Part shown: piece after piece, positions 8,343 to 33,500 of the stretch
How the letters are laid out: every line of letters begins with the position of its first letter
Position numbering within the stretch: position 1 is the stretch's first letter
Assembly (NCBI GenBank): GCA_027622555.1
Contig: JAQBYJ010000060.1
Coordinates: 1-35,033 of the forward strand
Direction of reading: 5' to 3'
Origin: Verrucomicrobiota bacterium
GTDB lineage: Bacteria > Verrucomicrobiota > Verrucomicrobiia > Opitutales > UBA2995
Length of the DNA: 35,033 nucleotides
Program-made: the position numbers and the translations under genes
The notes under the pieces: generated by a model
What the model was told of the DNA's origin: nothing
Seen by the model: the letters and a program-made list of their open reading frames with translations, nothing else
The model's database searches: none

Positions 8343-10403
8343 ATGAAATCTTGTTTCGCCATTTTGACTGTACTCGCCATCGTGAGCGCTTCACCGGTTG
8401 TAGCCCAAAACAAAAAGAAGGGCCTTGATTTTACGCGGGATATTCAACCAATTCTGGAAACGTTGTCGGCTGAAGAAAGAAGTATCCTCCTTGACTGGGC
8501 GGAGGCAGGAGCGCCGATCCCTTTGATCGCTGGTCACCAGGTTTCGGAAACGGACTTTTTCCAGGAAAAGATCGCGCCCCTGTTTGCTCAACATTGTTTG
8601 GAGTGCCATGATTCGAGCGCACGGGAAGGAGCCTTGGATTTGTCGAGAAAGGAAAGTGCCTTCAAGGGAGGTGATTCTGGTAAGGCTATTCTGCCGGGAA
8701 ATGCCGAGGAAAGCAGTTTGTGGGAATCAGTGTTTTTCGACGACATGCCGGAAGATCGTCCACACCTTTCTCAGGAGCAGAAAGACCTGATAAAACAATG
8801 GATCGATGACGGTGCAGAGTGGACGGTTGATTGGATCGATCCGGCTATTTACGAAAAAGAGGACAGCAAAGAAAATTGGATCAGACGACTCACTGTTGAT
8901 GAATACATTGAAACCGTTTGGCATGCGACGGGTGTTGATATCGAAAAAGAGGTACGCGATGTTTTGCCACCGGATCTTCGTGCGGACGGATTCAGCAATA
9001 CCGCTTACAATTTGAATGTGGATTTCGACCACGTGCAGGCCTATGCCAAATTGGCGAACCTCATCGTTGGGCAAATGGATGTTCTGGCATTTGCTGAACG
9101 ATTTTATAAGGACCTGAAGTTTACTGACAATGACATGGGAGCATTGCTCGATAAAATGGGAAGGTGGTTGCTGCGTGGTCCTTTGAATGATGGGGAGATC
9201 ATTGCGATTCGTGGAATATCAACCACGGTTGCCAGTGCAGGCGGAGATAAGGAAGAAGCGGTCAGGTTAATGATTGAAGGCATGTTGCAATCGCCTCGTT
9301 TTATTTACCGATTGGAAAAACAACGGGCACAGAAAACGGTATCTCCAGTATCTGAATACGAACTTGCTTCTCGTTTGAGTTATATGATTTGGGGAGGTCC
9401 GCCTGATGAAGAACTATTTCGTTCGGCCGAAAAAAATGAGCTAAAGTATCCGTTCGAGTTGGAGAAGCAAGTGAAGCGCATGTTGGCAAATCCTCGAGCG
9501 GTAAAACACTCGACGAAGTTTATTCAAGAGTGGCTCGATTTGGATCGTTTGGAAAATCTACGACCGAATTCCGAAAAGTTTCCGAACTGGAATCCAGAAC
9601 TTGCCGCGGATATGCGAGCAGAAACCCTGGCCTATTTTCAGGAAGTCATTTGGAGCCAAAACCGTCCTTTGGGCGACCTGCTTAATACACAAATCACGTT
9701 CGTCAGTCCTGCCTTAGCTGATTTCTATGGTCTTCAATCGGCCGATGCGACCACGCTTGAAAACGGCTTGGTTCGTTTCGATTTATCCGAAAATCCATAC
9801 CGGGGTGGATTGCTGACGCAGGGGAGCATGCTTACAGTAGGTGGCGACGAAGCTTCCATGGTAACACGTGGTCTTTTTGTTTTGCATGATCTTTTAAGAG
9901 GAACGGTCAAACCTCCACCGCCCGGATTAGATGTGATCCCGATTCCAGCCAAACCTGGTGAATCCAATCGCTTTATAGCCATGATCCGGGTCAACGATAA
10001 AACCTGTGGAGGGTGCCATTCGCGATTTGAGCCTTTGGCATTTGGCTTGGAGAAATTCGATGGCTTGGGGGCATTCCATCATGTGGATGAGCATGGCAAC
10101 GAATTGAGGGAAGACGGAGAATTGTTGATTCCAGGAAATTCCGAAGCGGTGCCCTACAAAACGGTTTCCGAGCTGATGGATCTTTTGGCGCAAAGTGACC
10201 GGGTAAATGAAACTTTAACGTGGAAGGTGGCCCAATGGGCCTTGGGTCGGCCCTTGACTTTGGAGGACGCTTTCGTCCTTGACAGAATCCATGAAACCGC
10301 CAAAAAAGAAGGTGGTTCTTATCCCAGTGTTATTTCCGCACTCGTGATGAGCGAGCTTGTGCAAACCACCCGAACCGAACCGATTGCATCTACCCTGAAT
10401 TAA
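8343..10403 (+). CDS. Diheme cytochrome-like DUF1592/DUF1588/DUF1585 protein (module 1)
   Basis: This is a 686-residue exported protein with signal peptide 1-21 (ending SPVVA-Q). The c-type heme site CLECH (85-89) lies in a planctomycete-type cytochrome domain ending QKDLIKQWIDDGAEW. Then come DUF1587 (about 178-240, LTVDEYIETVW), a short DUF1595-like region (about 265-325), DUF1592 (about 335-460, ELASRLSYMIWGGPPDEEL), DUF1588 with a second heme motif CGGCH (555-559) followed by SRFEPLAFGLEKFDGLG, and DUF1585 (about 600-680). Residues 29-60 (DFTRDIQPIL joined to LSAEERSILLDWAEAGAP) look like the two ends of another cytochrome domain with its CxxCH centre missing. It is shorter than the 817/827-residue relatives at 28466 and 31017 because it lacks their inserted beta-sandwich. 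Function is unknown; a periplasmic electron-transfer or oxidase role is only inferred. Confidence 0.92.
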   Translation: MKSCFAILTVLAIVSASPVVAQNKKKGLDFTRDIQPILETLSAEERSILLDWAEAGAPIPLIAGHQVSETDFFQEKIAPLFAQHCLECHDSSAREGALDLSRKESAFKGGDSGKAILPGNAEESSLWESVFFDDMPEDRPHLSQEQKDLIKQWIDDGAEWTVDWIDPAIYEKEDSKENWIRRLTVDEYIETVWHATGVDIEKEVRDVLPPDLRADGFSNTAYNLNVDFDHVQAYAKLANLIVGQMDVLAFAERFYKDLKFTDNDMGALLDKMGRWLLRGPLNDGEIIAIRGISTTVASAGGDKEEAVRLMIEGMLQSPRFIYRLEKQRAQKTVSPVSEYELASRLSYMIWGGPPDEELFRSAEKNELKYPFELEKQVKRMLANPRAVKHSTKFIQEWLDLDRLENLRPNSEKFPNWNPELAADMRAETLAYFQEVIWSQNRPLGDLLNTQITFVSPALADFYGLQSADATTLENGLVRFDLSENPYRGGLLTQGSMLTVGGDEASMVTRGLFVLHDLLRGTVKPPPPGLDVIPIPAKPGESNRFIAMIRVNDKTCGGCHSRFEPLAFGLEKFDGLGAFHHVDEHGNELREDGELLIPGNSEAVPYKTVSELMDLLAQSDRVNETLTWKVAQWALGRPLTLEDAFVLDRIHETAKKEGGSYPSVISALVMSELVQTTRTEPIASTLN

Positions 10404-10404
10404 A

Positions 10405-11820
10405 ATGAAGTACAAAAACATCAGTCGCCGCACTATGCTTAAAGGATTGGGCACGGTTGCCATCGGGGTCCCCTTTTTAGAGGAGATGCTTGTCGGCAAG
10501 GCTGTGGCCGCGCCAGCCGTACCGGTTCGCGCCTTCAACGTATTTTTTGGTTTGGGCATTCCGGCTCCTCTTCAGAAGGAAGGTTTCGAGGGCGTGTTGG
10601 AACCACTCAAGGAGCTTGGAGACAAACTGCTGATCATGCGGAATGTGGACCAGGTCCGGGCCGATGAATCGGGTATCAACGCCCATTTCGATGGCGCCTC
10701 CGCTTCGTTCACCGCGGAGGCTCCGCTCGGTGAGGCCAAATCGGGAGGACCTTCCATTGATCAGGTGGTTCGTAATTTCCACTATCCCAAGGGTCTGCCA
10801 TCCGGTGTTGTCCCAACGTTGGCGGGGGGCACTTATTTCCGCCGCAGCCGGGTGAGCCGCTACGTTCACTCCTACAATATGGATGGCACCGTGGCCGCCA
10901 CCATGCAGGAACGCCCTCGTGATTTATTTGAACGGGTCTTCGGCAGAATGGAACTTCCGGAAGGCATGACCGCCCGCGACCTGCACTTGAAACGCAGCGT
11001 TCTGGATTCCGTGGTCAGCCAATATAAGTTTTTCACCGGTGCCCATTCTCCTCTGGGAGCTCAATCAAAGGCCCGCATCGCCGATCACCTGGACCGCGTC
11101 CGGGAATTTGAGCAACGGGCTTATTCTCACCGTCCCATTGGTGAAGGACCCGCGTTGCCGCCTAAATCAAAAATCAAACACGGTGGAGAAGCGGATCCCG
11201 GAGGCGAAGGCATCGATATGCTACTCGAAGACCTTTCTGTGGAGTGGCGTTTGATGGCGGATCTTTATGCGCTGGCCATCCAAACCGACAAGGCCCGCTT
11301 TGGAGCCCTGACATTCCTGGCCGCCGGTGAACGGCTGCGTGTGAAAGGTGACTATGAGTACAACGGCCGCCACATCTTTTCTTTCGACGATGCAGCGCAA
11401 CACAACAAATCCGGTTCCGCCGGGTGCAGTCATGAGTGGTGGCATAAGTTCGATGAAAACCAACCCAACACGCAATTACGGGCTCACGCGCATTTCAAGA
11501 TGCGGGAAGTCGCCTACTTCCTGAAGCGCCTGGACGATGCCGATTCCATGGAAGGGAATGGAAAATCGATCCTCGAAAATTCCATGATCACCATTTCAAC
11601 CGAATCGGGCGATGGGCGCCATTCGGATGTGAAGCGCGAGCTTTCCGGAGTTTTCCATGCCATCACCAGTGCGAACGGACGCTTTAAAACCGGCCAGATC
11701 ATGGATGTGGGCGCGGAAGGTATCGACGTCTATAATACGATGCTTCAAGGGATGAACGTGAACTACAAACTGGGACCCGCGGACCGCGATCGCGTTTCCA
11801 TAGACGGAATCCGCGCGTAG
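10405..11820 (+). CDS. Tat-exported DUF1552 protein (module 1 partner)
   Basis: The 471-residue protein begins with a twin-arginine signal (SRRTMLKGLGTVAIGVPFLE) and continues as a DUF1552 protein: NVFFGLGIPAP, GPSIDQVVRNF, LKRSVLDSVVSQY and ALAIQTDKARFGALTFL. DUF1552 is, to my knowledge, related to the alkaline phosphatase/sulfatase-like fold and almost always sits beside DUF1592-type cytochromes. That is the case here: the start lies one base after the upstream stop, so the two are surely co-translated from one message. Tat export implies folding, perhaps with a cofactor, before crossing the membrane. The reaction is unknown. G/C content seems visibly higher than in the preceding gene. Confidence 0.93.
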   Translation: MKYKNISRRTMLKGLGTVAIGVPFLEEMLVGKAVAAPAVPVRAFNVFFGLGIPAPLQKEGFEGVLEPLKELGDKLLIMRNVDQVRADESGINAHFDGASASFTAEAPLGEAKSGGPSIDQVVRNFHYPKGLPSGVVPTLAGGTYFRRSRVSRYVHSYNMDGTVAATMQERPRDLFERVFGRMELPEGMTARDLHLKRSVLDSVVSQYKFFTGAHSPLGAQSKARIADHLDRVREFEQRAYSHRPIGEGPALPPKSKIKHGGEADPGGEGIDMLLEDLSVEWRLMADLYALAIQTDKARFGALTFLAAGERLRVKGDYEYNGRHIFSFDDAAQHNKSGSAGCSHEWWHKFDENQPNTQLRAHAHFKMREVAYFLKRLDDADSMEGNGKSILENSMITISTESGDGRHSDVKRELSGVFHAITSANGRFKTGQIMDVGAEGIDVYNTMLQGMNVNYKLGPADRDRVSIDGIRA

Positions 11821-11821: not shown

Positions 11822-13285
11822 ATGATCCGGATTTTTGCTTTTACTTTTTTTCTAGGCTTCACCGCGTTTTCCGCTCAAGCGGCGGATCGTCCCAATGTTC
11901 TCTTTATCGCCATTGACGACTTGAATGATTGGGTGGGTTGCTTTGGGGGACATCCCCAGGTTCAGACTCCCCATATCGACAAATTGGCCGAGCGCGGAGT
12001 TCTTTTTTCCAACGCCCATTGCCAGGCACCGATTTGTAATCCTTCACGGGTCAGCTTGATCCTGGGAAAACTTCCCTCCACGACCGGCATGTATTTCCTG
12101 GGGCCCAATTTCAGGTCGGTGGATGGAACGAAGAACGAGGAAACGATGTTTCAGTATTTCAGGAAGCATGGTTATCACACCTCGACCATGGGAAAGATAT
12201 TTCATGGGGCCGTGGATGAAGCCTCCTTCGACCACATTCAGAAAGCTTCCGGATGGACCAAGGGAAAAGAAAAAGTGCGTTTCACTATTCCGGGAAGTCA
12301 CCCGGGATGGGATTGGGGGGAAGTGGACGTTCCGGACGAAGATATGCTGGATTACCGTACGGCCACCTGGGCCGCAAAAGAACTTCCCGAACTGGCGAAA
12401 AAGGAAGAGCCTTTTTTCCTGGCGGTTGGATTTCACCTGCCTCACGTGCCCATCTATGCTTCCAAAAAGTGGTTTGATTTATATCCGTTGGGGGATATCC
12501 AGCTACCTGCCGCCATACCCGGCGACCGGGACGACCTCCCGGAGATTGCCAAGGAATTGACCCTCAACCCAACCGCACCGCGTCATGAATGGATGGTGGA
12601 AAACGATGAAAGCCGCCATGCCGTCCGCGCCTATCTGGCGGCCACCAGTTTCGTCGATGACTTGATCGGCAAGATTTTGGATGGACTCGAAAAAAGCGGC
12701 GAAGCGGACAACACCATCATTGTTTTGTGGGGTGACCATGGATTTCATCTGGGTGAGAAACAACGCTGGGCCAAACGCACCCTCTGGGAGGAAACCACGC
12801 GCGTGCCTTTGATTATTTCCGCCCCTGGCATGAAAAAAGGCGGGCGCAGTGCCCGTCCGGTTGGGCTGATTGATTTGTTTCCCACGCTGACCGACCTTTG
12901 CGGATTACCGGCCAAAAATGATTTGGAAGGCCAGAGTCTTGGCACTCTCTTAAAAAATCCGGATGCGCGTTGGGATCGACCTGCGCTGTGCACCTTTGGC
13001 CCGGACAATCATTCGCTGCGTTCCGAACGTTGGCGGTACACCGTCTACGCCGATGGATCAGAAGAGCTGTATGACCATGAAAATGATCCCCATGAATGGA
13101 ATAATTTGGCGGGAGACCCAAAATTCACAAAAGTCATAACCGGATTAAAAAAATTCCTTCCCAAGTTGAATGCGGATCCGCTGCCGGGCAGTTCGGGCTC
13201 GGACTCGCCACTTTACGGCGAGGGAAAGATATCTTTACAAGAGGCTATGAAACGTGGCCAACAACAATTAGAAAAAGGAAATTAA
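11822..13285 (+). CDS. Exported sulfatase, iduronate-2-sulfatase-like
   Basis: The 487-residue type I sulfatase has a signal peptide (IFAFTFFLGFTAFSAQA). RPNVLFIAIDDLNDWVG supplies metal ligands Asp32/Asp33. The formylglycine signature is C72-N-P-S-R (APICNPSRVSLILGKLPSTT), and TMGKIFHG (Lys125, His128) and WGDHGFHLGEKQRW complete the site. The order and the TMGKIFHG motif resemble iduronate-2-sulfatase and related enzymes acting on sulfated glycans. Activity needs oxidation of Cys72 by a formylglycine-generating enzyme or anSME, neither of which is in the window. The gene starts one base after DUF1552 and is followed one base later by the TauD-like gene, so sulfate ester removal and the dioxygenase step are probably produced together. 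The true sugar substrate cannot be told from sequence alone. Confidence 0.95.
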   Translation: MIRIFAFTFFLGFTAFSAQAADRPNVLFIAIDDLNDWVGCFGGHPQVQTPHIDKLAERGVLFSNAHCQAPICNPSRVSLILGKLPSTTGMYFLGPNFRSVDGTKNEETMFQYFRKHGYHTSTMGKIFHGAVDEASFDHIQKASGWTKGKEKVRFTIPGSHPGWDWGEVDVPDEDMLDYRTATWAAKELPELAKKEEPFFLAVGFHLPHVPIYASKKWFDLYPLGDIQLPAAIPGDRDDLPEIAKELTLNPTAPRHEWMVENDESRHAVRAYLAATSFVDDLIGKILDGLEKSGEADNTIIVLWGDHGFHLGEKQRWAKRTLWEETTRVPLIISAPGMKKGGRSARPVGLIDLFPTLTDLCGLPAKNDLEGQSLGTLLKNPDARWDRPALCTFGPDNHSLRSERWRYTVYADGSEELYDHENDPHEWNNLAGDPKFTKVITGLKKFLPKLNADPLPGSSGSDSPLYGEGKISLQEAMKRGQQQLEKGN

Positions 13286-13286: not shown

Positions 13287-14135
13287 ATGATTCGCACACA
13301 GCTGGAGATTGTCCCCATAGCAGGAGCTCTGGGAGCCGAAATTCGTGGCATCAACCTCGCCGAAAATTTAAGCGATGAAGTCATTCAGGAGATTCGCCAG
13401 GCCCTGCTGGATCATCTGGTCATTTTCTTCCGTGACCAGGAGATGACTCCTCAGCAGCAACTGGCTTTCGCCAAACGTTTCGGTGAATTGGATGAACATG
13501 ATTTTGTCCAAGGCCTGAAAGACTATCCCCACATCATTCGCTTGGTTCGCGAGGCCAATGAGAAGGGAAGTAACTTTGGCGGTGTATGGCATTCCGATGT
13601 TACCCACCAGAAAGCTCCGGCTCTCGGATCCATATTGTATGCGCTGGACGTTCCTCCCGTGGGTGGAGACACCCTGTTTGCCAACCAATACCTGGCTTAT
13701 GAAACGCTATCCGAAGGTCTGAAGGAAACGCTTCAAGGACTGGTCGGTATTCACACCGCCAAAGGACCGTTTGGACCTGAAGGACGGGCGACCAAGAACT
13801 GGCTCAACATGCAGGTGGTCACCAGTGACAAGGCCCTTGAGGAAACGGAACACCCGGTCGTGCGCACCCATCCCGAAACCGGTCGCAAAGGCCTCTTCGT
13901 CAACCGGACCTTCACCGTGCGCTTCAAGGATTGGACCGAAGAAGAAAGCGCGCCGCTACTGGAATATCTTTTCGATCACTCCCGCAAGGAGGCCTTCACC
14001 TGTCGCTTCAAATGGGAAAAGGGCTCGGTGGCATTCTGGGATAACCGCAGTGTGATGCACTACGCTTTGAATGACTATAACGGCCACCGTCGCGAAATGC
14101 ACCGGGTCACCGTGGCGGGGGACAAGCCGTATTAA
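13287..14135 (+). CDS. TauD/TfdA-family Fe(II)/2-oxoglutarate dioxygenase
   Basis: The 282-residue cytoplasmic protein is close in length to TauD (taurine dioxygenase, about 283). Iron ligands are WHSDVT (His102, Asp104) and the distal VMHYA (His258). HRREMHRVTVAGDKP (around Arg273) binds 2-oxoglutarate, and PPVGGDTLFAN is the usual strand after the HxD motif. Relatives hydroxylate taurine or other sulfonates, alkyl sulfates (AtsK type) or chlorophenoxyacids, releasing sulfite, sulfate or phenol. It is the last gene of the plus-strand operon. An AAGGAA (13275-13280), 6 bases before the ATG, is one of the few good ribosome sites in the window. Coupling to a sulfatase suggests organosulfur use, but the substrate is inferred only. 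Confidence 0.93.
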   Translation: MIRTQLEIVPIAGALGAEIRGINLAENLSDEVIQEIRQALLDHLVIFFRDQEMTPQQQLAFAKRFGELDEHDFVQGLKDYPHIIRLVREANEKGSNFGGVWHSDVTHQKAPALGSILYALDVPPVGGDTLFANQYLAYETLSEGLKETLQGLVGIHTAKGPFGPEGRATKNWLNMQVVTSDKALEETEHPVVRTHPETGRKGLFVNRTFTVRFKDWTEEESAPLLEYLFDHSRKEAFTCRFKWEKGSVAFWDNRSVMHYALNDYNGHRREMHRVTVAGDKPY

Positions 14136-16402: not shown

Positions 16403-17704
16403 TTACAGAAATTCTGGTGTTAGCCAACGGGGAAGAAATAAAATCATTTCGGGAAAAAGGATGACAAGAATAAGTAGCAGGAGCATCGGAATCAGAATGA
16501 TACCTACGTCCTTCATCGCATCGACCACTTTGATTTTTCCCAGCGCACAAGAAATAAGCAGGCACAATCCGTAGGGAGGAGTAACCAGTCCGAAGGCAAG
16601 AGAGATAACGCCAATGATGGCGAAGTGGATCGGGTGCATGCCTACTTTCGTTGCTACTGGAAGCAGAATGGTTCCTAAAATGATGATAGCCGGAATCGCA
16701 TCGATGAACATACCGATAATCAGGAACGCCAGTGCAACCAGAAATCCCGTAGTAATGATCCCGGTACCGTAACCGGCCAATAAGTTTACCAGCTCCTGTG
16801 GAACGCGATAGTAAGCGAGTAACCAACCAAAAGCTGAGGCTGTTCCGATACAGAAAAGAGAAATGGCTGCCAAGCGTGCAGATTCATAGAGGACCTTCGG
16901 CATTTCTTTAATACCGATCTTCCGGTAGACTATGCCGCCCAATAACGCCGAATATACCACTGCGACGACCGATGCTTCCGTCGGCGTAAACAACCCAAAT
17001 ACTATGCCTCCGACGATGATCGCCGGGGTTACCAGCGCAAAGATCGCCTGACCGAAAGCGGATACAAATTCTTTTAGAGATGCTCGTTGGTAGATGGGGT
17101 AGTTCCGGATCTTGGCGTAGACCAGCACGGTGCTCATCATAAATACAGCCATCAGGAATCCGGGAACGACTCCTGCGAGGAATAACCCGCCAATGGAGAC
17201 CGACATCAGTCCGCCCCAGACGATCATCAAAATGCTGGGCGGGATGATTACCCCCATAACCGATGAGCAGGCTGTGATCGCCACCGCGAAGTTGGTATCG
17301 TAACCTTGCTTTTTCATTGCAGGAATCATGAGGGATCCGATTCCGGCTGCGTCGGCGGTTGAAGATCCTGAGATTCCCGCGAAGAGCATGCTAACCATCA
17401 CGTTGATGTGCCCGAGACCGCCCGGTAGGTGCCCTACGGATGCACGGGCAAGGCTTACCAGACGTTCCGTTATCCCGGAGGCGTTCATTAAATTGGCCGC
17501 GAGCAGGAAGAATGGAACCGCCAGAAGAATAAATGAGTTGTAGGACTTCCACATCTCCTGGAGCAAGATGATCGGTCTCATTTGGGGATCGATCAGAAAC
17601 ACCGGAATACAAGCGAGGCCAAGAGCAAACGAAACAGGGACCCGTAGCAATATGAGAACTGCGAATAGACCGAAGAGAATCAGAGATACTTCACCGGCGC
17701 TCAT
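16403..17704 (-). CDS. dctM: TRAP transporter large permease (DctM)
   Basis: The 433-residue protein has about 12 transmembrane segments. DctM hallmarks are LLAVPFFLLAANLMNASGIT, FAGISGSSTADAAGIGS, VMGVIIPPSILMIVWG and LAFGLVTPPYGLCLLI. It forms the sodium-coupled elevator part of a tripartite ATP-independent periplasmic transporter in the inner membrane. Its ATG overlaps the dctQ stop in an ATGA (17701-17704), implying translational coupling. Confidence 0.97.
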   Translation of the reverse strand: MSAGEVSLILFGLFAVLILLRVPVSFALGLACIPVFLIDPQMRPIILLQEMWKSYNSFILLAVPFFLLAANLMNASGITERLVSLARASVGHLPGGLGHINVMVSMLFAGISGSSTADAAGIGSLMIPAMKKQGYDTNFAVAITACSSVMGVIIPPSILMIVWGGLMSVSIGGLFLAGVVPGFLMAVFMMSTVLVYAKIRNYPIYQRASLKEFVSAFGQAIFALVTPAIIVGGIVFGLFTPTEASVVAVVYSALLGGIVYRKIGIKEMPKVLYESARLAAISLFCIGTASAFGWLLAYYRVPQELVNLLAGYGTGIITTGFLVALAFLIIGMFIDAIPAIIILGTILLPVATKVGMHPIHFAIIGVISLAFGLVTPPYGLCLLISCALGKIKVVDAMKDVGIILIPMLLLLILVILFPEMILFLPRWLTPEFL

Positions 17705-24072: not shown

Positions 24073-26985
24073 TCAGGGAATGAACTGAAATTCGGGGGTG
24101 TTGATCAAAAGCCAGGCAGCATCTTCCATGCGTTCGCGCCAGTCTGCCTCCAATGTTTTGGTTGGTTCGGGGCCTTGTTGAAATGTTTCAACCTTCGCCG
24201 CTACGTGGTAGTTGGCCTCGACACTCAAGTGATTGCCCCAACTGACTTCCCGGATTTCAGGAATCCACTTTTCCTTTTCAAACCCGTCAGTCTTGGCCGT
24301 TTTTCTCGAATCAAATCCTTCTTCGAGCAATGCCTTGAATTCCGTTTTTTCATGGTCCTTCGGAAGCCGGGTCAGGAAACGGAGGAAAAGCTGATCCACC
24401 AATGCTTCAGTTGAGTCGACCTCCCAGGCCAGAGCCGTCAATTCGCTATAGTCGCTGAGCCCAGTTACCCACAAGGTCAGGCTGCTGTTTGCCAACACCC
24501 CGGGCTGCATGACATTGGTTTCTGATTCCCGGTCAGTGATCGGTTCGGCCCGGTTTGGTCGCCAACCGTAGGCGCGCATCAGTGACACGATTTCGTTTAC
24601 CATCGGCAAAGTCAGGCTGGCTCGCTCCCGCTCGGTTGAGGTGGAAACAAACTCCCAGGCACGTTTTGGGAAGCCGTAGTTGACAAATGTTTCGGGGTCC
24701 CAATGCCCTTCCACATCGAGAGTTAGTTCTTCGGTAAACAGAGGCACTCCGGCGCTACTGAAAAGAGAATCCACCAACTGCTCGGCTGTCATACTTCTGC
24801 GCTGAGGCGCTTCTAAAAAACGGTTGTCTCCCGATGAATGGTTGATGGAAGTCCGCGCGTAAGCCGCGCTGTTAAGGATAAGGCGTGACAGCTGTTTCAG
24901 ATCGTAATTGTTGGCCACGAATTCACGGGCCAGATACTCCAGCAACTCCGGATGGCTGGCTGCATTTCCTTCCCAGTCAAAGGCGGGTTCGACAAAGCCT
25001 TTGCCGAAGTACCGCTTCCAGATGCGGTTGACGATTACCTTGGCGAATCTTCTGTTTTGCGGGCGGGTGATCTGCCAAGCAAGGTCAACTGCTGGATTGA
25101 TGAAGGCCATCTCTTCTTTGATTGAATGTTCAACAAGTTCCGTGAACGGCCAGTTGGGCTCGACCGAGGTATCCGGTTCCAGGTTACTTTGAATTATGGG
25201 CTTCCTTCCATTGAGCCGTTCGAAAAAAGTGACAGGGACCGTCGAAGTATCAGGAACTTGAAGGGCTTTGCCACCCAACATGGCAGCCAGGGAAAACAGG
25301 TCTTTCTGAGTGGTTGAATGATAAGGCGAATCGTGGCAGCGAGCGCACTTCATTTCGATTCCCAAAAAAGCGGTGGCAACGACATGGGCCTTCTCTGCCA
25401 TGGGCGAGTCGTTGTCGGTAGCCAGCCCAAAGCCTCCGGCACCTCCGGCAAAGGCCTCACCCTGAAAGGTAACCAGCTCCGTCACAAATTGGTCGAAGGG
25501 TTTGTTGTCCAGTAGGGACTCATGAATCCAGTAACGAAACGGACCGGAGTGATTGAGCGTCGGTTTCATCAGACTCGGGTTCTCTGCCAGCACATCCTGC
25601 CAGTAGGATACCCAGTGATCCGCGTAGCGCGGGTCGTTCAGAAGTTGATCAACCAAACGGCTTTTTTTATCGCGGCGTCTATCAGTTTGATAGCGTTTGA
25701 TTTCGTCCGTGTTCGGGGGAACGCCAACCGTATCCAGATATATACGTCGCAGAAATGAAAGCTCATCCAGCGGTTCGGGTGTGGAAACAAATTCTGTGAC
25801 GCGGTTCCACTTGGCGCCGGATTGAATCCAATTTTCAAGGATCGCGATCTGTTCTTCAGTTAAAGGATCTGTTTCAAATGGCATGCGATCCAATTCATCT
25901 TCGACCGTTATGCGGACAAATAATTCACTCCGTTCGGCATCTCCGGGAACGAGGGTGGCAAACTCGGATTCCCCGCCTGCCAGGGCCGCTTGGCGACTGT
26001 CGAGCTTGAGGCCTCCCTTGGCCTTTTTCCCATGGCAGCGAATGCAATGCTCTTCCAGGATGGGCCAGACCTTTTCCTCGAACAGGTTGTCTTCCGATTG
26101 TTTGCCAATTGAATTGTTGTTTTCGACGATCCTGGCATCGAGCAATTGGTCTATTACATTTTGTGCTTTGAAATTTATCCCGCTGACCTTTCCTTCAATC
26201 GGAGGAAGCGCATTTATATAACGCCTCGCTTCCTTGTGGCGTGAATTCCAGTAAGAGCTCAGCTGTGTCCGCGCCCGATCCCGCTGTTCCTGATTCAATC
26301 GTTCGAAGCTGCTCTTTTGGGTTTCTTTGAGCTCCGACATGGCCATTAACTCAAACGAAGTTGGATGCATTTCCTTGGGCGATAGAAGAAGCCATGGATC
26401 CGACTGCTGCTTTTGAAAGGCGACTAACAACTCATGCACGGGCACCGATTTGTTGCGGTAAGCAATCAGGCATTCCAGGGACACTTTATGAGCTCCGCTT
26501 GTTGCAGAAACGCTTGTCAATAGATCCTTGGTGCCCAGTCGACCTCGCGGATAGGGGAGTCCGGGATCTACGGCTGGACGCATGTGTCCATGAGCGTTCG
26601 GACTTTCTGTAACCGCCTCACCCTGGGAAATAATTTGGTCGTCTAACCACAGGCGCGATTTGCCATTGGTGCGGTCTAAAAAAGTATAAGCATGATCGTC
26701 CAGATTTACTTTCCCGGTCATTCGAATGAGTATGGGAGCCTGATAGCGCAACCGCTCACCCAAGGGGCCATATTTTTGTGGCAGGTCGAATAGCGCAAAA
26801 CTGGGAAGAACGAAACTGGCATCCGGTTCTCCCAGGTTGACCGGCCATTCGGTTTTACTTTCCACGCCTTCAAATAGCTCCACCAACACCTGCCCCTGCG
26901 GAATCCTGGGTTCAGGAGCCGCCTTCGCGAGGCTGACGAGGCTTATGGCGAGGATTAGGACTTGGACTGTGGTGCGAAATTTCAC
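24073..26985 (-). CDS. DUF1549/DUF1553 cytochrome-like protein with PA14-like N-terminus (module 2)
   Basis: The 970-residue exported protein has signal peptide VLILAISLVSLAKA. An N-terminal beta-sandwich (about 30-190; AYTFLDRTNGKSRLWLDDQI) resembles PA14-type carbohydrate-binding domains. A planctomycete cytochrome domain with CIRCH (314-318) follows, ending EQIAILENWIQSGAKW. DUF1549 (about 405-600, LSFLRRIYLDTVGVPPNTDE) contains a second heme motif CARCH (547-551). DUF1553 (about 650-900) shows RRFAKVIVNRIWKRYFGKGFVEP and LKQLSRLILNSAAYARTS. Two CxxCH motifs imply two c-type hemes. Together with the PA14-like domain this suggests a surface or periplasmic redox protein that binds glycans. 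That is inference, as no member is biochemically characterised to my knowledge. It leads a two-gene operon with DUF1501. Confidence 0.93.
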   Translation of the reverse strand: MKFRTTVQVLILAISLVSLAKAAPEPRIPQGQVLVELFEGVESKTEWPVNLGEPDASFVLPSFALFDLPQKYGPLGERLRYQAPILIRMTGKVNLDDHAYTFLDRTNGKSRLWLDDQIISQGEAVTESPNAHGHMRPAVDPGLPYPRGRLGTKDLLTSVSATSGAHKVSLECLIAYRNKSVPVHELLVAFQKQQSDPWLLLSPKEMHPTSFELMAMSELKETQKSSFERLNQEQRDRARTQLSSYWNSRHKEARRYINALPPIEGKVSGINFKAQNVIDQLLDARIVENNNSIGKQSEDNLFEEKVWPILEEHCIRCHGKKAKGGLKLDSRQAALAGGESEFATLVPGDAERSELFVRITVEDELDRMPFETDPLTEEQIAILENWIQSGAKWNRVTEFVSTPEPLDELSFLRRIYLDTVGVPPNTDEIKRYQTDRRRDKKSRLVDQLLNDPRYADHWVSYWQDVLAENPSLMKPTLNHSGPFRYWIHESLLDNKPFDQFVTELVTFQGEAFAGGAGGFGLATDNDSPMAEKAHVVATAFLGIEMKCARCHDSPYHSTTQKDLFSLAAMLGGKALQVPDTSTVPVTFFERLNGRKPIIQSNLEPDTSVEPNWPFTELVEHSIKEEMAFINPAVDLAWQITRPQNRRFAKVIVNRIWKRYFGKGFVEPAFDWEGNAASHPELLEYLAREFVANNYDLKQLSRLILNSAAYARTSINHSSGDNRFLEAPQRRSMTAEQLVDSLFSSAGVPLFTEELTLDVEGHWDPETFVNYGFPKRAWEFVSTSTERERASLTLPMVNEIVSLMRAYGWRPNRAEPITDRESETNVMQPGVLANSSLTLWVTGLSDYSELTALAWEVDSTEALVDQLFLRFLTRLPKDHEKTEFKALLEEGFDSRKTAKTDGFEKEKWIPEIREVSWGNHLSVEANYHVAAKVETFQQGPEPTKTLEADWRERMEDAAWLLINTPEFQFIP

Positions 26986-27151: not shown

Positions 27152-28453
27152 ATGAAACCCGTTCATTTCAATTTCGCTAAACACGTTTCCCGTCGAACAT
27201 TTCTGAGAGGTGTTGGCGTATGTCTGGCGCTTCCAGCTCTGGAGAGTATGTTTCCGGCGTTCGCCGCTTTCCCAGCATCCCAGGGGCCAAAACGACTGGT
27301 GGCGGTGGGGAATTCCTTCGGTATGTATCAACCGTCCTTTTTTCCCACTGAAACCGGGGCGGATTACGTTGCACCCGAGTTGTTGGCCCCACTGGATAAA
27401 CTGCGGAAATCTTTCACCATCTTTTCCAATCTTGATCACGGTCTCACCGGTGGTCACTTCGGCGTCCATTCGTTTTTATCCGGTGTGTTGAAGGTCGATG
27501 CCAAAAACATGCCCGACGGCAATATCAGCCTCGACCAGAGGGCTGCCGAAGTGCTGGGATCAACGACACGATTTCCCACGCTGACCGTGGGCTCCAGCAG
27601 TGGTTTGCATAACGGATGCCAGATGTCATGGACTCGCTCGGGGGTTCGGGTGCCTCCGATCACCGGTCCGCGGGAGTTGTTTAAAAAACTGTTCGAGCAG
27701 GATTCCGAAAAAGGCAAACGCGCGGCGGCCGAGAGATCCCTGTTAAAGAAATCCATTCTCGATTCCGTTTTGGAGGACGCCCATTCCATGGCGCGCTCCG
27801 TGACGGCGCAGGATCGGGATAAGCTGGATGAATATTTTACCGCCGTTCGCGAAACCGAATTGAAAGTCGATCAGGGACGGCACTGGATCGGTGTTCCCAA
27901 GCCAAAGGCTACCATTGAAGAACCGCCCAACCAGGGTATCGTTCTCGATATTCCGACACTGTATGATTTGATCATCCTGGCTCTGCAGACCGACTCAACC
28001 CGCATTGCCACGCTGGAAATTTCCAGTGAACAATTCGACGCCACGGTTCTGGGTGTTTCCGGTGGGTACCACCTCACCTCGCACCATGGTCAGCAGGAGG
28101 ACAAAATTCGGGACCTGGTAAAGCTAGAGCGTTACCAGACGGAACATTTCGCACGGTTTCTGGAAAAACTCGATACCCTCAAAGATGAAACCACCGGTGG
28201 GAGTCTGTTAAATGATTCCATGGTGTTGTTTGGCTCGGGTATGGGGAATGCAAACTCGCATACCAATACGGATCTTCCCATCGTCCTGGCTGGCGGCGGT
28301 TTCAACCACGGTCAGCACATTGCACTGCCCAAGGAAAGTCATCGGCGGGTTCCGCTTTCCAATCTCTACCTGTCCCTGCTCAACCGCATGGGAATCGAGG
28401 ACAGTTACTTTGCGCAGAGCACCGGGACGCTTCCTCAACTCGAAACAGTCTGA
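27152..28453 (+). CDS. Tat-exported DUF1552 protein (module 3 partner)
   Basis: The 433-residue protein has a twin-arginine signal (HVSRRTFLRGVGVCLALPAL). DUF1552 blocks are RLVAVGNSFGMYQPSFFP, FSNLDHGLTGGHFGVHSFL, SLDQRAAEVLG, LLKKSILDSVLEDAHSM, LYDLIILALQTDSTRIATLE, GGYHLTSHHGQQED and VLFGSGMGNANSHTNTDLP. The many conserved His/Asp residues fit a phosphatase-like metal site. It is more typical of the family than the 10405 product, which has replaced several of these blocks. Here the DUF1552 gene comes first and the cytochrome second (12-base gap), the reverse of module 1. Catalytic role unknown. Confidence 0.94.
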   Translation: MKPVHFNFAKHVSRRTFLRGVGVCLALPALESMFPAFAAFPASQGPKRLVAVGNSFGMYQPSFFPTETGADYVAPELLAPLDKLRKSFTIFSNLDHGLTGGHFGVHSFLSGVLKVDAKNMPDGNISLDQRAAEVLGSTTRFPTLTVGSSSGLHNGCQMSWTRSGVRVPPITGPRELFKKLFEQDSEKGKRAAAERSLLKKSILDSVLEDAHSMARSVTAQDRDKLDEYFTAVRETELKVDQGRHWIGVPKPKATIEEPPNQGIVLDIPTLYDLIILALQTDSTRIATLEISSEQFDATVLGVSGGYHLTSHHGQQEDKIRDLVKLERYQTEHFARFLEKLDTLKDETTGGSLLNDSMVLFGSGMGNANSHTNTDLPIVLAGGGFNHGQHIALPKESHRRVPLSNLYLSLLNRMGIEDSYFAQSTGTLPQLETV

Positions 28454-28465: not shown

Positions 28466-30919
28466 GTGGTAAAACGTTTTGCTGTTGTCCTGATTGCGAG
28501 CCTGCCAGTTGTTGCTGCCGCAGTAGCCGACTCGCATTTCGATGCCTCCTTAACAGCCTTTGTTAACGACTATTGCGTGAAATGCCACGGCCCCGAAAAG
28601 CAGAAAGGGGTTCGTCGTTTTGATACCCTGAGCTTGCCGGTTTCCGATTCGGAAACGCTCATTCAATTGCAGGATATGCTCGATATTCTGAATCTGGGAG
28701 AGATGCCTCCGGAAGACGAAGATGAGAGACCAGAGGTCGATGGGCTTCTCCAGATGATCGGTATGCTAACCGACACAATTGAGACTCACAACGAACTGCT
28801 GGCCAGCACCGGTCAGAAAACGCTTTTGCGGAGACTGAATAGCCGGGAGTACCGGAATACGATTCGCGATTTGTTTAACATGAACACTTCGCTGTTTGAT
28901 CCTACCCAATCTTTTCCTCCCGATGAAACGGTCCAACATCTGGATACATTGGGAGATCAGTTGGTTACTTCCGGCTATCTGTTGGATCAGTACTTTGAAG
29001 CGGCGGATGAGGTCATTGAAAAAGTGTTCTCTGTCAGGAGTAAGCCCGTGGCACGGGAATGGACCTTCAAGAATAATTTCCGAAATCTCATGGGCTTGGA
29101 CACGGTCATGGAGAAGCTGTGCAACTATGAGTACATGATGCTTCTCGACTTACCATCTTCCATTCAGAACATCGGCGCTTACGGCACCATTTATGATTTC
29201 CTAAACGGGGTTCCCTTCGATGGCTACTATCGCATCCGCGTGCAAGCTGAGTCGAAGAATAGAAAACACAGCTACGTTCGGCCTATAACTTCCACCAATC
29301 CCAACCAACCTCACGAGCTGGGCATAGTTCCAGGCAATATTCTGGTTGGCGATATTGGGATGCCTCAACACATTGAACCGGTATTGGCCTCTTTCACCCT
29401 TCCGGATGACCAGGTGGAGTGGTATGAGGCCACGGTGTGGTTGGATGCCGGAATTACTCCGAGATTTATTTTCCCCAACGGCACGGTCAACGCACGGAGT
29501 GCAAATCGAGCCACCTTTGCCAGGATAGCCCCGACCTTAGACGAGGAGTTGGAAAATGACTTTCAGAACCGCAGATACATAACGCTAAAATACGGTAACC
29601 TGCCTCACATCCGGATTCACGAAGTGGAAATTACCGGACCCTTGTATGATAGCTGGCCGCCGCCGCCGCAAAAGACGGTTTTGCAGGGCGACCGTTTTAA
29701 TCCAGGGAAGGTGGGGGAACTCATCGCGGGATTTGCTACCCGGGCTTACCGCCGTCCGGCGACGAAAGAAGAGGTAGGCGAATTGTTGACCTTTTACGAA
29801 CACCGCCGTGCCGATGGAATTCCCAGATTTCGGGCGTTTAAAGAAACTCTCAAGCGCGTGCTGTGTTCGCCCGGGTTTTTATACCTGCATGAACCGTCCG
29901 ATGATCAGGGACGACTTACCGGTTATGCGCTGGCCTCTCGCTTGTCCTACTTTCTTTGGTCATCCATGCCGGATGAGGAACTTCTGGCGCTTGCATCACA
30001 AGACCACTTGAGCGATCCCGAGATACTTCAGCAACAGGTTCGTCGCATGCTGGCTGATCCGAAGGCGCTGTCCTTGGTGAAGAATTTTGTCGATCTCGTT
30101 CTGACCCTCAAGGACCTGGGAACCCAACCTCCGGATGACCGGGAATTCCGGCTTTACTACGAGCGCAATCTGCAGAAATACATGTACGAAGAAACATTGT
30201 ATTTCGTTCAACACCTCTTTGAAGAAAATCGGGCCATCACCGACCTGATCGATGCCGACTATTCCTTTATCAACGAACCTCTGGCAGAACTTTATGGCTA
30301 CCAGGATATTCACGGCCTGGATTTTCGAAAAGCGCAAATACAGGATCCCTTGCGTCGAGGAATCTTGGGACACGCATCGATCCTCACCGTTACCGCAAAT
30401 GGCATTGATACGTCGCCGGTTATTCGCGGCGTCTGGATACTGGAAAATATCCTGGGTACTCCTCCATCCCCACCGCCACCGGATGTGGAACCTTTTGACC
30501 CCGATACCCGTGGGGCCGTTTCACTGCGGGACCAGTTGGAGAAACATCGAAAAAATCCCACCTGTTATGAATGCCACCGTAAAATCGATCCACTGGGTTT
30601 TGCCTTCGAGAGTTTTGATCCCATCGGGCAATTGAGATCTGCCTACCCCAACGATTTGCCGGTGGATAGTTCGGGAACTCTACCGGACGGCACCTCCTTC
30701 CAGACAGTAGCGGAGCTGAAACACATATTGCTGGAGCGACAACCGCAAATTGCCCGGTCGCTAACCTCCAAGCTGCTCGCATTTGCCGCAGGCCGGCGCA
30801 TGGAAGCGGCTGATCGACGAGAGATGGAGCGCATCGTCGAACTTCATCAGGAGAAAGGGAATGGCTTCCGGGATTTATTCGAACTCGTAGCACTGAGTGA
30901 AATTCTACAGAAAAAATGA
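28466..30919 (+). CDS. Diheme cytochrome-like DUF1592 protein (module 3, first tandem copy)
   Basis: The 817-residue reading starts with GTG at 28466, the only start that includes the signal peptide (VKRFAVVLIASLPVVAAAVA). The next in-frame Met is after the heme motif. Order of parts: CVKCH (37-41) with HGPEKQKGVRRFD; DUF1587 (LLRRLNSREYRNTIRDLFNM, about 108-180); an inserted beta-sandwich (about 215-380, YYRIRVQAESKN and FTLPDDQVEWYEATVWLDAG); DUF1595 (RAYRRPATKEEV); DUF1592 (LASRLSYFLWSSMPDEEL); DUF1588 with CYECH (700-704); and DUF1585 to the end. It shares about two-thirds identity by eye with the next gene. Likely exported, with two c-type hemes; activity unknown. It follows DUF1552 by 12 bases. 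Confidence 0.93.
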   Translation: MVKRFAVVLIASLPVVAAAVADSHFDASLTAFVNDYCVKCHGPEKQKGVRRFDTLSLPVSDSETLIQLQDMLDILNLGEMPPEDEDERPEVDGLLQMIGMLTDTIETHNELLASTGQKTLLRRLNSREYRNTIRDLFNMNTSLFDPTQSFPPDETVQHLDTLGDQLVTSGYLLDQYFEAADEVIEKVFSVRSKPVAREWTFKNNFRNLMGLDTVMEKLCNYEYMMLLDLPSSIQNIGAYGTIYDFLNGVPFDGYYRIRVQAESKNRKHSYVRPITSTNPNQPHELGIVPGNILVGDIGMPQHIEPVLASFTLPDDQVEWYEATVWLDAGITPRFIFPNGTVNARSANRATFARIAPTLDEELENDFQNRRYITLKYGNLPHIRIHEVEITGPLYDSWPPPPQKTVLQGDRFNPGKVGELIAGFATRAYRRPATKEEVGELLTFYEHRRADGIPRFRAFKETLKRVLCSPGFLYLHEPSDDQGRLTGYALASRLSYFLWSSMPDEELLALASQDHLSDPEILQQQVRRMLADPKALSLVKNFVDLVLTLKDLGTQPPDDREFRLYYERNLQKYMYEETLYFVQHLFEENRAITDLIDADYSFINEPLAELYGYQDIHGLDFRKAQIQDPLRRGILGHASILTVTANGIDTSPVIRGVWILENILGTPPSPPPPDVEPFDPDTRGAVSLRDQLEKHRKNPTCYECHRKIDPLGFAFESFDPIGQLRSAYPNDLPVDSSGTLPDGTSFQTVAELKHILLERQPQIARSLTSKLLAFAAGRRMEAADRREMERIVELHQEKGNGFRDLFELVALSEILQKK

Positions 30920-31016: not shown

Positions 31017-33500
31017 ATGCTAAGCTCCACCTCATTCAAATCTACTTTCGTGAAACGCTCGTTGCCATATTTGCTCATTTGGGTTCTGAGCTCTATCCCT
31101 TTGATCGGGAACTCTGATTTCGGAACTACTTTAACCAATTTTCTGGAGAGCTATTGCATTCAATGCCACGGCCCCGAAAAACAAAAAGGCGACCGGCGGC
31201 TTGATAGCATGAACTTGCCCATCAAAGACTCGGCGACTCTCATTGAGCTCCAGGATATTCTGGATATTTTGAATCTGGGAGAAATGCCACCTGAGGAAGA
31301 GGAAAAACGACCCGATGACCCTGAGATGCTCGCCATGATCGCGGGGTTGACCGAGACCTTGGAAGCGCATCATGCTCTTTTATCCAGCACGAATCGGGAA
31401 ACGGTATTGAGGCGCTTGAATCGCCGGGAGTATTTAAATAGCATCCGCGATCTGTTAAGCATGAACATCTCCCTTTTCGATCCGGCTCAGTCCTTCCCCC
31501 GGGATGAGGAAGAGCACCATGTCGATACCTTGGGCGACCAACTGGTTACTTCCAGTTACTTGTTGGATCAATATGTCGAGGCGGCCGATGCCATTATCGA
31601 AAAAGTGTTTGCAACCACCGGGAAACCCGAAGTGCGGAACTGGCATTTCACCGGCAATTTCAGGAGCCTGGAAGGCTTGGGGAGCACGATGGAGCAATTA
31701 TGCAATTACGAGTACATTGCCCTGTATGAGGTGCCAACCTCGCAAAGGCATGAAGGTGCCTATGGAACGATCTATGATTTTCTCGATGGGGTTCCATCGG
31801 ACGGCCATTACCGCATCCGTCTTCTCGCCGAAGCAAAAAACCGCATTCACAACCACATCGCGCGTGTATCCACCACCAACCCGAATCAGTTGCATGAACT
31901 CGCCATTGTCCCAGGCGACAAGCGGGTGGGGGAACTTGGAATTCCGCAGAGAATCGAGCCAACCCTGGCTTCCTTCACGCTGCCCGATGACCAACCCGGA
32001 TGGTACGAGGCAACCGTCTGGCTGGATGCCGGGATTACGCCGCGCTTTATCTTTCCCAATGGAACCATCAACTTGCGCAGTGCTTTCCAACCCGTTTTCG
32101 ACAAGATTGCCCCGACCCTCGATGAGGAACTGGTCAATGACTTTGGTAACCGGAAACTGGTTACGTTGAAATATGGAGAGTTGCCGCACATCCGGATCCA
32201 CGAAGTTGAGATAACCGGACCACTCAACGACCAATGGCCCAGTGCTTCCCAGCAATCCGTTTTACAAGGTAAACCTTTTTCCAGCCTTCGGGTAAAGAAG
32301 CTGGTGGGAGACTTCGCCACGCGCGCCTACAGGCGACCCGCCACCAGGGAAGAGAAAGATCAACTCATGTCATTTTATGAAAAACGAATGGAATCCGGCC
32401 TCGGCTCTTTCCAGGCGTTCAAGGATACGCTGAAGCGCGTGCTTTGTTCTCCGGGTTTTCTTTATCTGCAGGAGCCTGCGGATGAAGCGGGTCAATTAAA
32501 TGACTACGCTCTCGCTTCCCGCTTATCTTACTTTCTCTGGTCGTCCATGCCGGACGACATTCTGCTTCGCCTGGCCGCCAAAGGCAGCTTGGGTTCTCCG
32601 CGTGTGTTAAAGACCCAGGTCAGGCGGATGCTGAAGGACGAGCGCTCCGAGGCTTTTGTTTCCAATTTCGCTGATCTGGTTTTGACTTTAAAAGACCTCG
32701 GCTCCCAGCCACCCGACCGAAACAAATTTGCCATTTATTACCAGCGGAATCTGCAGAAATACATGTATGAGGAAACCCTTCAACTGGTGCGCCACCTCCT
32801 GAAGGAAAACCGCAAAATCACCGAGCTGATCAACGCCGATTACACCTTTATCAATGAACCCTTGGCCGAGCTGTATGGTTATGAAGGCATCCACGGATTG
32901 CATTTTCAAAAAATAACCCTTCCGGACAAGAGACGTTCCGGTGTGCTGGGGCACGCCTCGATCTTAACCGTGACGGCCAATGGCATCGATACCTCTCCGG
33001 TCATTCGTGGTGTCTGGATGTTGGAGAATATTCTGGGGTCTCCTCCCTCGCCTCCGCCACCGGATGTGCCGCCCTTCGACCCCGACACCCGCGGGGCTCT
33101 TTCCTTGCGGGATCAATTGGTGAAGCATCGCAAAAATCCGACTTGTTTTGAATGCCATCGGAAGATTGATCCCTTGGGTTTCGCGCTTGAGTCTTTCGAC
33201 CCCATTGGCCAATGGCGTTCCAGTTACAACAAGGATGTTCCCGTCGATTGCTCCGGAACCCTTCCGGATGGTTCCTCCTTTAATTCGATTGAGGAGTTCA
33301 AGGACATCCTTGTTGGAAGAAGCGACCAGATCATCCGGGCTATCACCAGCAAACTTCTCACGCTTGGTACGGGCCGACGGATGGAAGCCGCCGATCGCCG
33401 GGAGATTGACGCGATCATCGAGATTCTGCGAGACCAGGGAGACGGTTTCAGGGATCTGGTGGAATTGACGGTTCTTAGTGAGATTTTCCGGAGCCATTAA
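31017..33500 (+). CDS. Diheme cytochrome-like DUF1592 protein (module 3, second tandem copy)
   Basis: I place the start at the ATG at 31017 (827 residues). The frame is open back to a GTG at 30897, but that would translate the palindromic repeat and overlap the upstream gene. The chosen start gives a signal-like N-terminus (SLPYLLIWVLSSIPLIGNS). Parts mirror the preceding gene: CIQCH (47-51), DUF1587 (VLRRLNRREYLNSIRDLLSM), inserted beta-sandwich (FTLPDDQPGWYEATVWLDAG), DUF1595 (RAYRRPATREEK), DUF1592 (LASRLSYFLWSSMPDDIL), DUF1588 with CFECH (710-714) and DUF1585. Both heme motifs are kept, so the copy looks functional rather than decaying. It ends 49 bases from the convergent integrase. Confidence 0.93.
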   Translation: MLSSTSFKSTFVKRSLPYLLIWVLSSIPLIGNSDFGTTLTNFLESYCIQCHGPEKQKGDRRLDSMNLPIKDSATLIELQDILDILNLGEMPPEEEEKRPDDPEMLAMIAGLTETLEAHHALLSSTNRETVLRRLNRREYLNSIRDLLSMNISLFDPAQSFPRDEEEHHVDTLGDQLVTSSYLLDQYVEAADAIIEKVFATTGKPEVRNWHFTGNFRSLEGLGSTMEQLCNYEYIALYEVPTSQRHEGAYGTIYDFLDGVPSDGHYRIRLLAEAKNRIHNHIARVSTTNPNQLHELAIVPGDKRVGELGIPQRIEPTLASFTLPDDQPGWYEATVWLDAGITPRFIFPNGTINLRSAFQPVFDKIAPTLDEELVNDFGNRKLVTLKYGELPHIRIHEVEITGPLNDQWPSASQQSVLQGKPFSSLRVKKLVGDFATRAYRRPATREEKDQLMSFYEKRMESGLGSFQAFKDTLKRVLCSPGFLYLQEPADEAGQLNDYALASRLSYFLWSSMPDDILLRLAAKGSLGSPRVLKTQVRRMLKDERSEAFVSNFADLVLTLKDLGSQPPDRNKFAIYYQRNLQKYMYEETLQLVRHLLKENRKITELINADYTFINEPLAELYGYEGIHGLHFQKITLPDKRRSGVLGHASILTVTANGIDTSPVIRGVWMLENILGSPPSPPPPDVPPFDPDTRGALSLRDQLVKHRKNPTCFECHRKIDPLGFALESFDPIGQWRSSYNKDVPVDCSGTLPDGSSFNSIEEFKDILVGRSDQIIRAITSKLLTLGTGRRMEAADRREIDAIIEILRDQGDGFRDLVELTVLSEIFRSH

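Follow-up and report, generated by a model that had tools for sequence, protein, structure and literature searches.

Which of two tightly linked gene products does the chemistry is the question raised by a 35,033-base stretch of DNA from a Verrucomicrobiota bacterium (contig JAQBYJ010000060.1, hereafter the window), which is the whole of contig C60 in a 6.0-Mb genome of 238 contigs that is 95.8% complete. The window contains three groups in which a large protein with CXXCH haem-binding motifs is encoded next to a smaller protein of the family DUF1552 or DUF1501. A first-pass annotation of the sequence had read them as three versions of one module, namely a two-haem protein linked to a protein exported by twin-arginine translocation (Tat) and having an alkaline-phosphatase-like fold. 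The window genes were called from reading frames and Pfam, and 23 of them were scanned, with families taken at E<=0.01. All of the families named at the outset were confirmed by Pfam: DUF1592 with DUF1552 (8343/10405), DUF1553 with DUF1501 (24073/22796) and DUF1552 with two DUF1592 copies (27152/28466/31017). Three pairs are present, although they are of two kinds, one of which occurs twice, and they belong to a kind of bacterial gene pair that is already known. The phosphatase-shaped partner is more likely than the haem protein to be the heart of this system, because haem can be missing while the key residues of the partner stay.

Fold and conserved residues of the smaller partners

The DUF1552 protein encoded at 27152..28453 on the forward strand (Pfam 256.7 bits) was modelled with AlphaFold2 from 49 sequences, giving a mean predicted local distance difference test score (pLDDT) of 88.7 and a predicted template modelling score (pTM) of 0.86. 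At E<=0.001, Foldseek matched this model to 19 chains of the PDB (TM-scores 0.30-0.50, probability 0.99-1.00, lowest E 1.6e-4), which include LtaP/LtaS and YejM as well as sulfatases and phosphonate monoester hydrolases. With VIA-align, the highest Z was 17.2, to an NPP-type snake-venom phosphodiesterase (root mean square deviation 3.7, 247 residues), and both iduronate-2-sulfatase and PafA alkaline phosphatase reached about 16. The fold of the DUF1552 model is that of the alkaline phosphatase (AlkP) superfamily, which is new here. In profile comparison, DUF1552 matches DUF1501 (98.7%, E 3.7e-16), and the C-terminal part of DUF1501 matches sulfatases (94.8%, E 5.3e-8); DUF1552 itself gives 60.9% (E 8e-5) to sulfatases, and controls with reversed alignments stay at or below 1.1%. 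Judged by these profiles, DUF1501 and DUF1552 are homologues, which is likewise new, and an AlkP-superfamily fold is assigned to DUF1501 by homology. The fold proposed in the first-pass annotation is supported in this way for both families.

Across 91 DUF1552 proteins, R14, R15, R48, G57, H102, D128, Q129, H307, H311 and H370 are 96-100% conserved, and in DUF1501 H108, D289 and H291 are found in 92/92 proteins and H347 and R335 in 91/92, whatever the partner. The DUF1501 protein of the window (22796..24070, reverse strand; Pfam 319 bits) has the conserved set His108, Asp289, His291, Glu332, Arg335 and His347. When the 92 DUF1501 and the 91 DUF1552 proteins, each counted once, are aligned together, the H108 column is His in every protein of both families (92/92 and 91/91), the H347 column in 91/92 DUF1501 and 87/91 DUF1552 proteins, and the H291 column, in the HXXSHH region, in 92/92 and 80/91, respectively. 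The acidic positions are different: DUF1501 keeps Asp289 together with Glu or Asp at 332, whereas in DUF1552 the D289 column is Ser or Thr (88/91) and the E332 column is Gly or Asn (76/91). As candidates for the conserved metal ligands whose search had been recommended, DUF1501 offers a His/Asp/Glu/Arg set; DUF1552 keeps the His and has its acids mostly replaced. The His of DUF1501 stands as far from the T-G that follows it as the Cys does in the consensus of sulfatases, and in the 27152 model H102 is located at the start of a helix following a strand. The invariant His probably stands at the place of the sulfatase formylglycine or the phosphatase Ser/Thr.

A twin-arginine motif (RR-x-F/L/M) is found near the N-terminus of 17/18 DUF1552 and 36/39 DUF1501 genes in the window's own genome, fragments included. 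It reads SRRTFLRG in the 27152 protein and MNRRTFLK, with a TAT_signal match, in the 22796 protein. The motifs of the supposed Tat-exported partner are thus in place, and export itself may be presumed from them.

Such a fold raises the possibility that the smaller partner is a plain phosphatase or sulfatase that depends on metal and uses an unusual nucleophile, the large partner being a scaffold and the haems only sensing the redox state or serving maturation. The similarity to sulfatases, NPPs and PafA in fold and profile favours this explanation, as do the sulfatase genes that neighbour the pairs. However, DUF1552 is without the acids that standard two-metal hydrolysis would call for, a His seemingly takes the place of the nucleophile (according to a weak alignment), and at least one CXXCH is present in all 35 DUF1553-type and all 18 DUF1592-type genes of the own genome, so that we regard a plain hydrolase as quite unlikely.

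Pairing of the genes and haem sites of the large partners

In the own genome, the genes in 53 stretches around module genes were labelled with profiles built for this analysis; the DUF1553 and DUF1592 profiles cross-match, and each gene was assigned by the better score. The counts, including fragments, are 18 DUF1552, 39 DUF1501, 35 DUF1553-type, 18 DUF1592-type (16 by Pfam) and 3 DUF1800 genes. The tight linkage described at the outset holds throughout: 54/54 adjacent pairs lie on the same strand, with median gaps of 2-23 bases depending on the pair type. A DUF1592-type neighbour was found for 16/18 DUF1552 genes (two of the 16 being incomplete), and of the remaining two, one is at the end of contig C74 and the other on C212, a contig of 4.6 kb. 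Species genomes of many phyla were scanned as well and gave at least 590 DUF1592 loci; among the best 80 of these, DUF1552 is adjacent in 73 and more distant in 3, while 3 others lack it and are short of room on a side, and 1 lacks it despite room on both sides.

Co-occurrence was also examined in 115 sampled genomes of the phylum. DUF1552 and DUF1592 are both present in the same 7 and both absent from the same 108, with equal counts in 6 of the 7 (1, 1, 1, 5, 10 and 7) and 18 against 16 in the own genome. DUF1501 is over the cut-off in 51 genomes, exactly those with DUF1553 (34) or DUF1800 (24), three more genomes with sub-threshold DUF1501 matches only being excluded from the 51. In candidate-rich genomes the first 14 (DUF1501) or 21 (DUF1553) candidates were scored, and the figures therefore express presence, not copy number. 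In these 115 genomes, each partner family is over the cut-off only where the other occurs, and this co-occurrence is a new observation.

Some pairs have an unusual appearance. At L132 (191-6958), DUF1553-DUF1501 is followed, next to DUF1501, by a DUF1592-like gene (5009-6958) that is labelled DUF1592-type by profile without a Pfam DUF1592 match. At L104 (7227-8424), both pair genes are short (229 and 160 aa) and lie among sulfatases, perhaps as a decaying copy. The pairs at L223, L195 and L216 are in metagenome-bin records titled Klebsiella pneumoniae or Akkermansia muciniphila, and these bins may be misnamed.

Two CXXCH motifs are counted in each of the four large proteins of the window, but the reading of two haems as the common theme is not supported. 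Among the DUF1553-type proteins of the own genome, 24/35 have two CXXCH and 11/35 have one. CXXCH is absent from 31/31 DUF1800 partner domains and from all 28 matching frames of L242-L269. It is also absent from 20/20 short DUF1553 proteins of 20 genomes of the phylum (frames of 493-687 codons), which were picked for their short frames and not at random. For 18 of these 20 genes DUF1501 is encoded in the fetched stretch, and for the other two on another contig of the genome. In a tree of the 92 DUF1501 proteins, those linked to haem-free DUF1553 form one clade (18 rows, support 100) nested in a 25-row branch with the window DUF1501 and two own-genome rows having two-CXXCH partners, a topology that fits a single loss of haem. 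The DUF1800-linked proteins form a separate branch (support 99), which includes the partnerless own-genome row L138; the label haem-linked was the default for own-genome and named-locus DUF1501 except the three linked to DUF1800. The conserved DUF1501 residues are identical across the haem-linked, haem-free-DUF1553-linked and DUF1800-linked groups. Because CXXCH-free partners coexist with nearly invariant DUF1501 residues, haem is optional while the AlkP-fold residues are constant, which is new here.

This bears on the alternative that the haem protein is the working part, a periplasmic or extracellular redox enzyme for glycan oxidation or an electron donor to it, as Cbp2D of Cellvibrio japonicus is presumed to be for a lytic polysaccharide monooxygenase (LPMO), and that the phosphatase-fold protein is an accessory. 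In the DUF1592-type, the second haem site has C-C-H in 99/99 rows (2/101 rows with fewer than two CXXCH having been left out beforehand), the Met of an MPP motif at the first haem site is invariant in 61 sequences, and one insert in the window, that of 28466, resembles a carbohydrate-binding module (CBM). According to passages of the literature on Cbp2D, its X183 cytochrome domain reduces LPMOs (PMC8981238), and cbp2D and cbp2E are needed for growth on insoluble cellulose (PMC12542752). Nevertheless, the AlkP-fold partner and its conserved residues persist where the DUF1800 and chosen short DUF1553 partners are CXXCH-free, and searches that started from the first haem domain of either of two window proteins did not recover the CjX183 structure. 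A leading role of the haem protein is, in our judgement, unlikely.

The DUF1592-type protein at 28466..30919 (forward strand, two CXXCH) was also modelled by AlphaFold2 (61 sequences, pLDDT 88.4, pTM 0.87). Its helical core has no Foldseek match at E<=0.001, and a second fold search gave matches for the insert alone; this does not show a new fold. Residues 195-395 form an insert modelled as a jelly roll, closest to CBM36 (Z 9.1) and CBM6 (Z 8.3) and followed at Z 7-8 by other jelly rolls, with ephrin receptors and BcsB among them. Sugar binding by this insert is modestly supported by the model. In the alignment, a large insert is present in the 28466 and 30897 proteins and absent from the 8343 protein. 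The PA14-like domains of the first-pass annotation were not recovered; at E<=10, residues 1-300 of the 24073 protein and the two inserts (28466 and 30897) match neither PA14 nor any other binding domain, the lone match there being a glycosidase domain at E 0.15, under its cut-off.

The large partners themselves may have a common origin. Between DUF1553 and DUF1800 there is a weak similarity in colinear order (Pfam E 0.0026; 77% over 226 columns; 41% in the first-named profile comparison), and a short unit of DUF1592, when compared alone, is common to DUF1553 (94.8%) and DUF1800 (80.8%) at the opposite end of the protein. Because the common unit stands at the other end of DUF1592, a relation to DUF1553/DUF1800 by circular permutation is suggested. 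The local path between DUF1553 and DUF1592 covers 226 columns in the permuted order (score 55.9) and 60 columns in the native order (52.3). Permutation brings no gain for DUF1800, reversed controls score 13-22, and global scores single out no one cut.

A candidate two-subunit enzyme of the cell envelope

We tentatively propose, giving it a little less than an even chance, that each pair constitutes an obligate two-subunit cell-envelope enzyme, in which the AlkP-fold protein is catalytic and the large protein is its helical companion. The DUF1552 or DUF1501 subunit would be exported by Tat and would have a His-centred site on the AlkP-superfamily fold, made up of the invariant His, further conserved His residues and, in DUF1501, Asp, Glu and Arg as well, which would be either catalytic or metal-binding. 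The DUF1592-type, DUF1549/DUF1553 or DUF1800 partner, helical and presumably exported, would contact this subunit and position the substrate, and in at least one partner a carbohydrate-binding-like domain might help to hold it. In the haem-bearing partners, including all four in the window, haems attached at the two CXXCH sites could donate electrons to the site or accept them from it; such redox help is plausible for these members, although it is not a theme shared by the pairs. The paralogues would have different targets, often sulfated carbohydrates or small organosulfates. The AlkP-fold protein is taken as the catalytic part because it keeps an invariant set of polar residues in versions with and without haem alike, and because Tat is a fitting export route for a protein that folds around a cofactor in the cytoplasm. 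In a broader form of the proposal, which we consider doubtful, DUF1552 and DUF1501 would represent a new His-centred catalytic class of the AlkP fold, probably metal-binding and with a chemistry other than ester hydrolysis, accompanied by one ancient helical partner family (DUF1800, DUF1549/1553 and a permuted DUF1592) that has gained and lost haems and sugar-binding folds.

Sulfatases are enriched around the modules in the own genome, with 41 per 433,505 non-module bases of the module stretches against 15 per 400,000 in the control (one-sided P = 0.001), and 14/85 genes directly adjoining modules are sulfatases against 3/85 random control genes (P = 0.009), the controls being from larger contigs lacking modules. 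The two sulfatases in the 35-kb window do not exceed background, since the control density predicts 1.3 (P = 0.38); the clustering with sulfatases pointed out earlier is supported by the genome as a whole and not by the window alone. A family search in the own genome scored 150 of 335 sulfatase candidates, and the densities were therefore counted in the module and control stretches. Two sulfatase matches of the own genome, C11:35149-36192 and C99:270-1322, have one stop codon each.

Another possibility is that the pairs act in envelope biogenesis or structure, like LtaS or YejM, on the cell's own surface polymers, the number of paralogues representing surface diversity and not foraging. Foldseek indeed places LtaP/LtaS and YejM among its top matches to the DUF1552 model, pairs without haem are conserved, and bacterial chitin synthase genes accompany the DUF1800-DUF1501 genes described in PMC5122149. 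On the other hand, the distribution looks accessory, with 18 DUF1552 and about 40 DUF1501 genes in this genome and DUF1552/DUF1592 missing from 108/115 genomes, and sulfatases are enriched, which makes such a role improbable.

As for the two-subunit enzyme proposed above, several points weigh against it. The Foldseek TM-scores are low, at most 0.44 by query length (19 rows, E<=0.001), though the Z of VIA-align is high. Sequence searches found no convincing solved relative for queries including DUF1501, DUF1553 and the two first haem domains (best E 0.02 to 1.2, with short or unrelated matches; none at 0.1 for DUF1553). The alignment behind the placement of His for the nucleophile scores 16, which is the noise level. 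With their acids lost, the DUF1552 proteins may do a different chemistry from that of DUF1501, and the 10405 copy of DUF1552 is without one conserved His: the counterparts of H102, D128, H307 and H311 are kept in the alignment, and H370, P376 and G381 are lost. The sulfatase link in other genomes (L162-L241) is missing from one of the two gene orders, a sulfatase being directly downstream of 9/23 DUF1552-first pairs versus 0/43 DUF1592-first pairs; in the own genome, the first pair of the window and L093 are DUF1592-first yet have a downstream sulfatase. Glycoside hydrolases are absent from the 25 listed of the 107 families matched by adjacent genes, among which singles could be unlisted. Finally, no activity has been reported for the pairs: in the literature covered, which leaves out most subscription journals, the titles and abstract openings contain no claim of biochemical activity for DUF1501, DUF1552, DUF1553, DUF1592 or DUF1800. 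As far as these searches go, the earlier statement that the biochemistry of the pairs is undescribed is right, with two footnotes: the pairs and a carbohydrate role appear in passages of PMC5615132, and Cbp2D, reported as required for growth on insoluble cellulose, shares DUF1587 with the DUF1592-type proteins of the window.

If the broader form of the proposal is true, bacteria have a two-subunit enzyme family able to run with or without electron transfer. The constant part is the AlkP-fold partner and its conserved residues, not the haem, which turns an open-ended puzzle into a directly testable one. The genes concerned number dozens in the own genome and in Rhodopirellula baltica and are found in many phyla, yet the searches brought up no reported reaction for them. 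The full-length haem protein of the Cbp2D kind could not be produced, as stated in a passage of PMC8981238, and the compact haem-free DUF1553-DUF1501 pairs should express more easily than such proteins.

Surroundings of the pairs and comparison with known systems

The first pair of the window opens a four-gene run (8343-14135) on the forward strand with 1-base gaps throughout. It starts with the DUF1592-type gene (8343..10403, 686 aa, two CXXCH; PSCyt1 and DUF1587/DUF1595/DUF1592/DUF1588/DUF1585) and a divergent DUF1552 gene (10405..11820; Pfam 124.9 bits, profile 28-307; N-terminal Tat-like motif SRRTML). A sulfatase gene follows (11822..13285; Sulfatase and SGSH_C), whose top NCBIfam match is a choline-sulfatase scoring under the family cut-off, and the run is closed by a TauD/TfdA-type dioxygenase gene (13287..14135). 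The substrate of this run may be a small organosulfate and not a glycan. A TRAP transporter is encoded nearby on the opposite strand (16403-19262). As annotated at first, a second sulfatase (19379) and a SASA acetylesterase (14822) are also matched by Pfam in the window. In the second pair, the DUF1501 gene is separated by a 2-base gap from the gene for a PSCyt1, DUF1549 and DUF1553 protein with two CXXCH (24073..26985, reverse strand); directly downstream of DUF1501 lies a tandem of two genes (20841-21842 and 21772-22662, reverse strand) that overlap and look alike, whose products of about 300 aa have no Pfam match at E<=10. The third group ends with a second DUF1592-type gene (31017..33500, forward strand, two CXXCH), a tandem duplicate with 66% protein identity to that at 28466, both standing beside a single DUF1552 gene. 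Its frame is open from 30897, and the ATG at 31017, before a signal-peptide-like stretch, is the likelier start.

The own genome has 58 units, 52 of which have both partners. The clustering of three modules within 25 kb, which had seemed noteworthy, was rejected as evidence: when the units were placed at random 5,000 times (contig ends ignored), three or more fell within 25.2 kb of one another at least once in 73% of the placements, neighbouring units no more than 15 kb apart number 9 against 7.7 expected, and another triple lies on contig C11.

An integron integrase gene (33550-34785, reverse strand; TIGR02249, 360.7 bits against a cut-off of 265) adjoins the last DUF1592-type gene, and only 248 bases of contig are left upstream of its start, so that most of any attI/attC array would lie past the contig. 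An IS110-type transposase gene (2-760, reverse strand) is interrupted by the contig start. A TonB plug protein is encoded at 1037-4579. The window does not look like a Bacteroidota-type polysaccharide utilisation locus, as SusD and glycoside hydrolases are unmatched by Pfam in the 23 genes. Pfam gives no match of a window protein to diheme cytochrome c peroxidase, MauG or RoxA at E<=0.01, and LPMO families are unmatched by Pfam in the 23 genes, the rest of the genome not having been searched for LPMOs.

Four known systems are comparable with the pairs. The AlkP superfamily (NPPs, PafA and sulfatases) shares the modelled fold of DUF1552 and the C-terminal sequence profile of DUF1501, although a His apparently replaces the Ser/Thr/formylglycine nucleophile and the acids are replaced in DUF1552. 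Cbp2D of Cellvibrio japonicus is reported, in passages of PMC8981238 and PMC12542752, as required for growth on insoluble cellulose, and Cbp2D-like proteins TERTU_2913/3803 are described for Teredinibacter (PMC8981238, PMC10916295, PMC12542752). Cbp2D has DUF1587 and two CXXCH cytochrome domains together with a carbohydrate-binding module; the DUF1592-type proteins of the window likewise combine DUF1587 (PF07626, found by Pfam in 8343, 28466 and 30897) with two CXXCH, whereas a DUF1552 partner goes unmentioned in the passages on Cbp2D. The DUF1800-DUF1501 operons with chitin synthases (PMC5122149, in part) have in common with the window the twin-arginine DUF1501 family and the tight gene pairing, but DUF1800 is without CXXCH in all those examined, and the link there is to chitin synthase. 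The remaining system is that of the planctomycete-specific cytochrome (PSCyt/PSD) cassettes. In the relevant passages, PSD1 and PSC2 were found in 41 copies each in Rhodopirellula baltica (PMC2754498), DUF1501 gene clusters from a 2012 paper are cited (PMC4452313), and freshwater Verrucomicrobia were described as having PSCyt/PSD domains that are accompanied by binding modules, by sulfatase genes in the neighbourhood and by two neighbouring families of unknown nature, a carbohydrate role being proposed for the cassettes (PMC5615132). The two neighbour families would correspond to DUF1501 and DUF1552. In the window, PSCyt (CXXCH) and PSD domains are likewise combined in one protein with a DUF1501 or DUF1552 gene adjacent. 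The pairing, the sulfatase neighbourhood and the carbohydrate idea are already published (PMC5615132), and what the present analysis adds to these cassettes is the fold of the partner and the haem-free versions.

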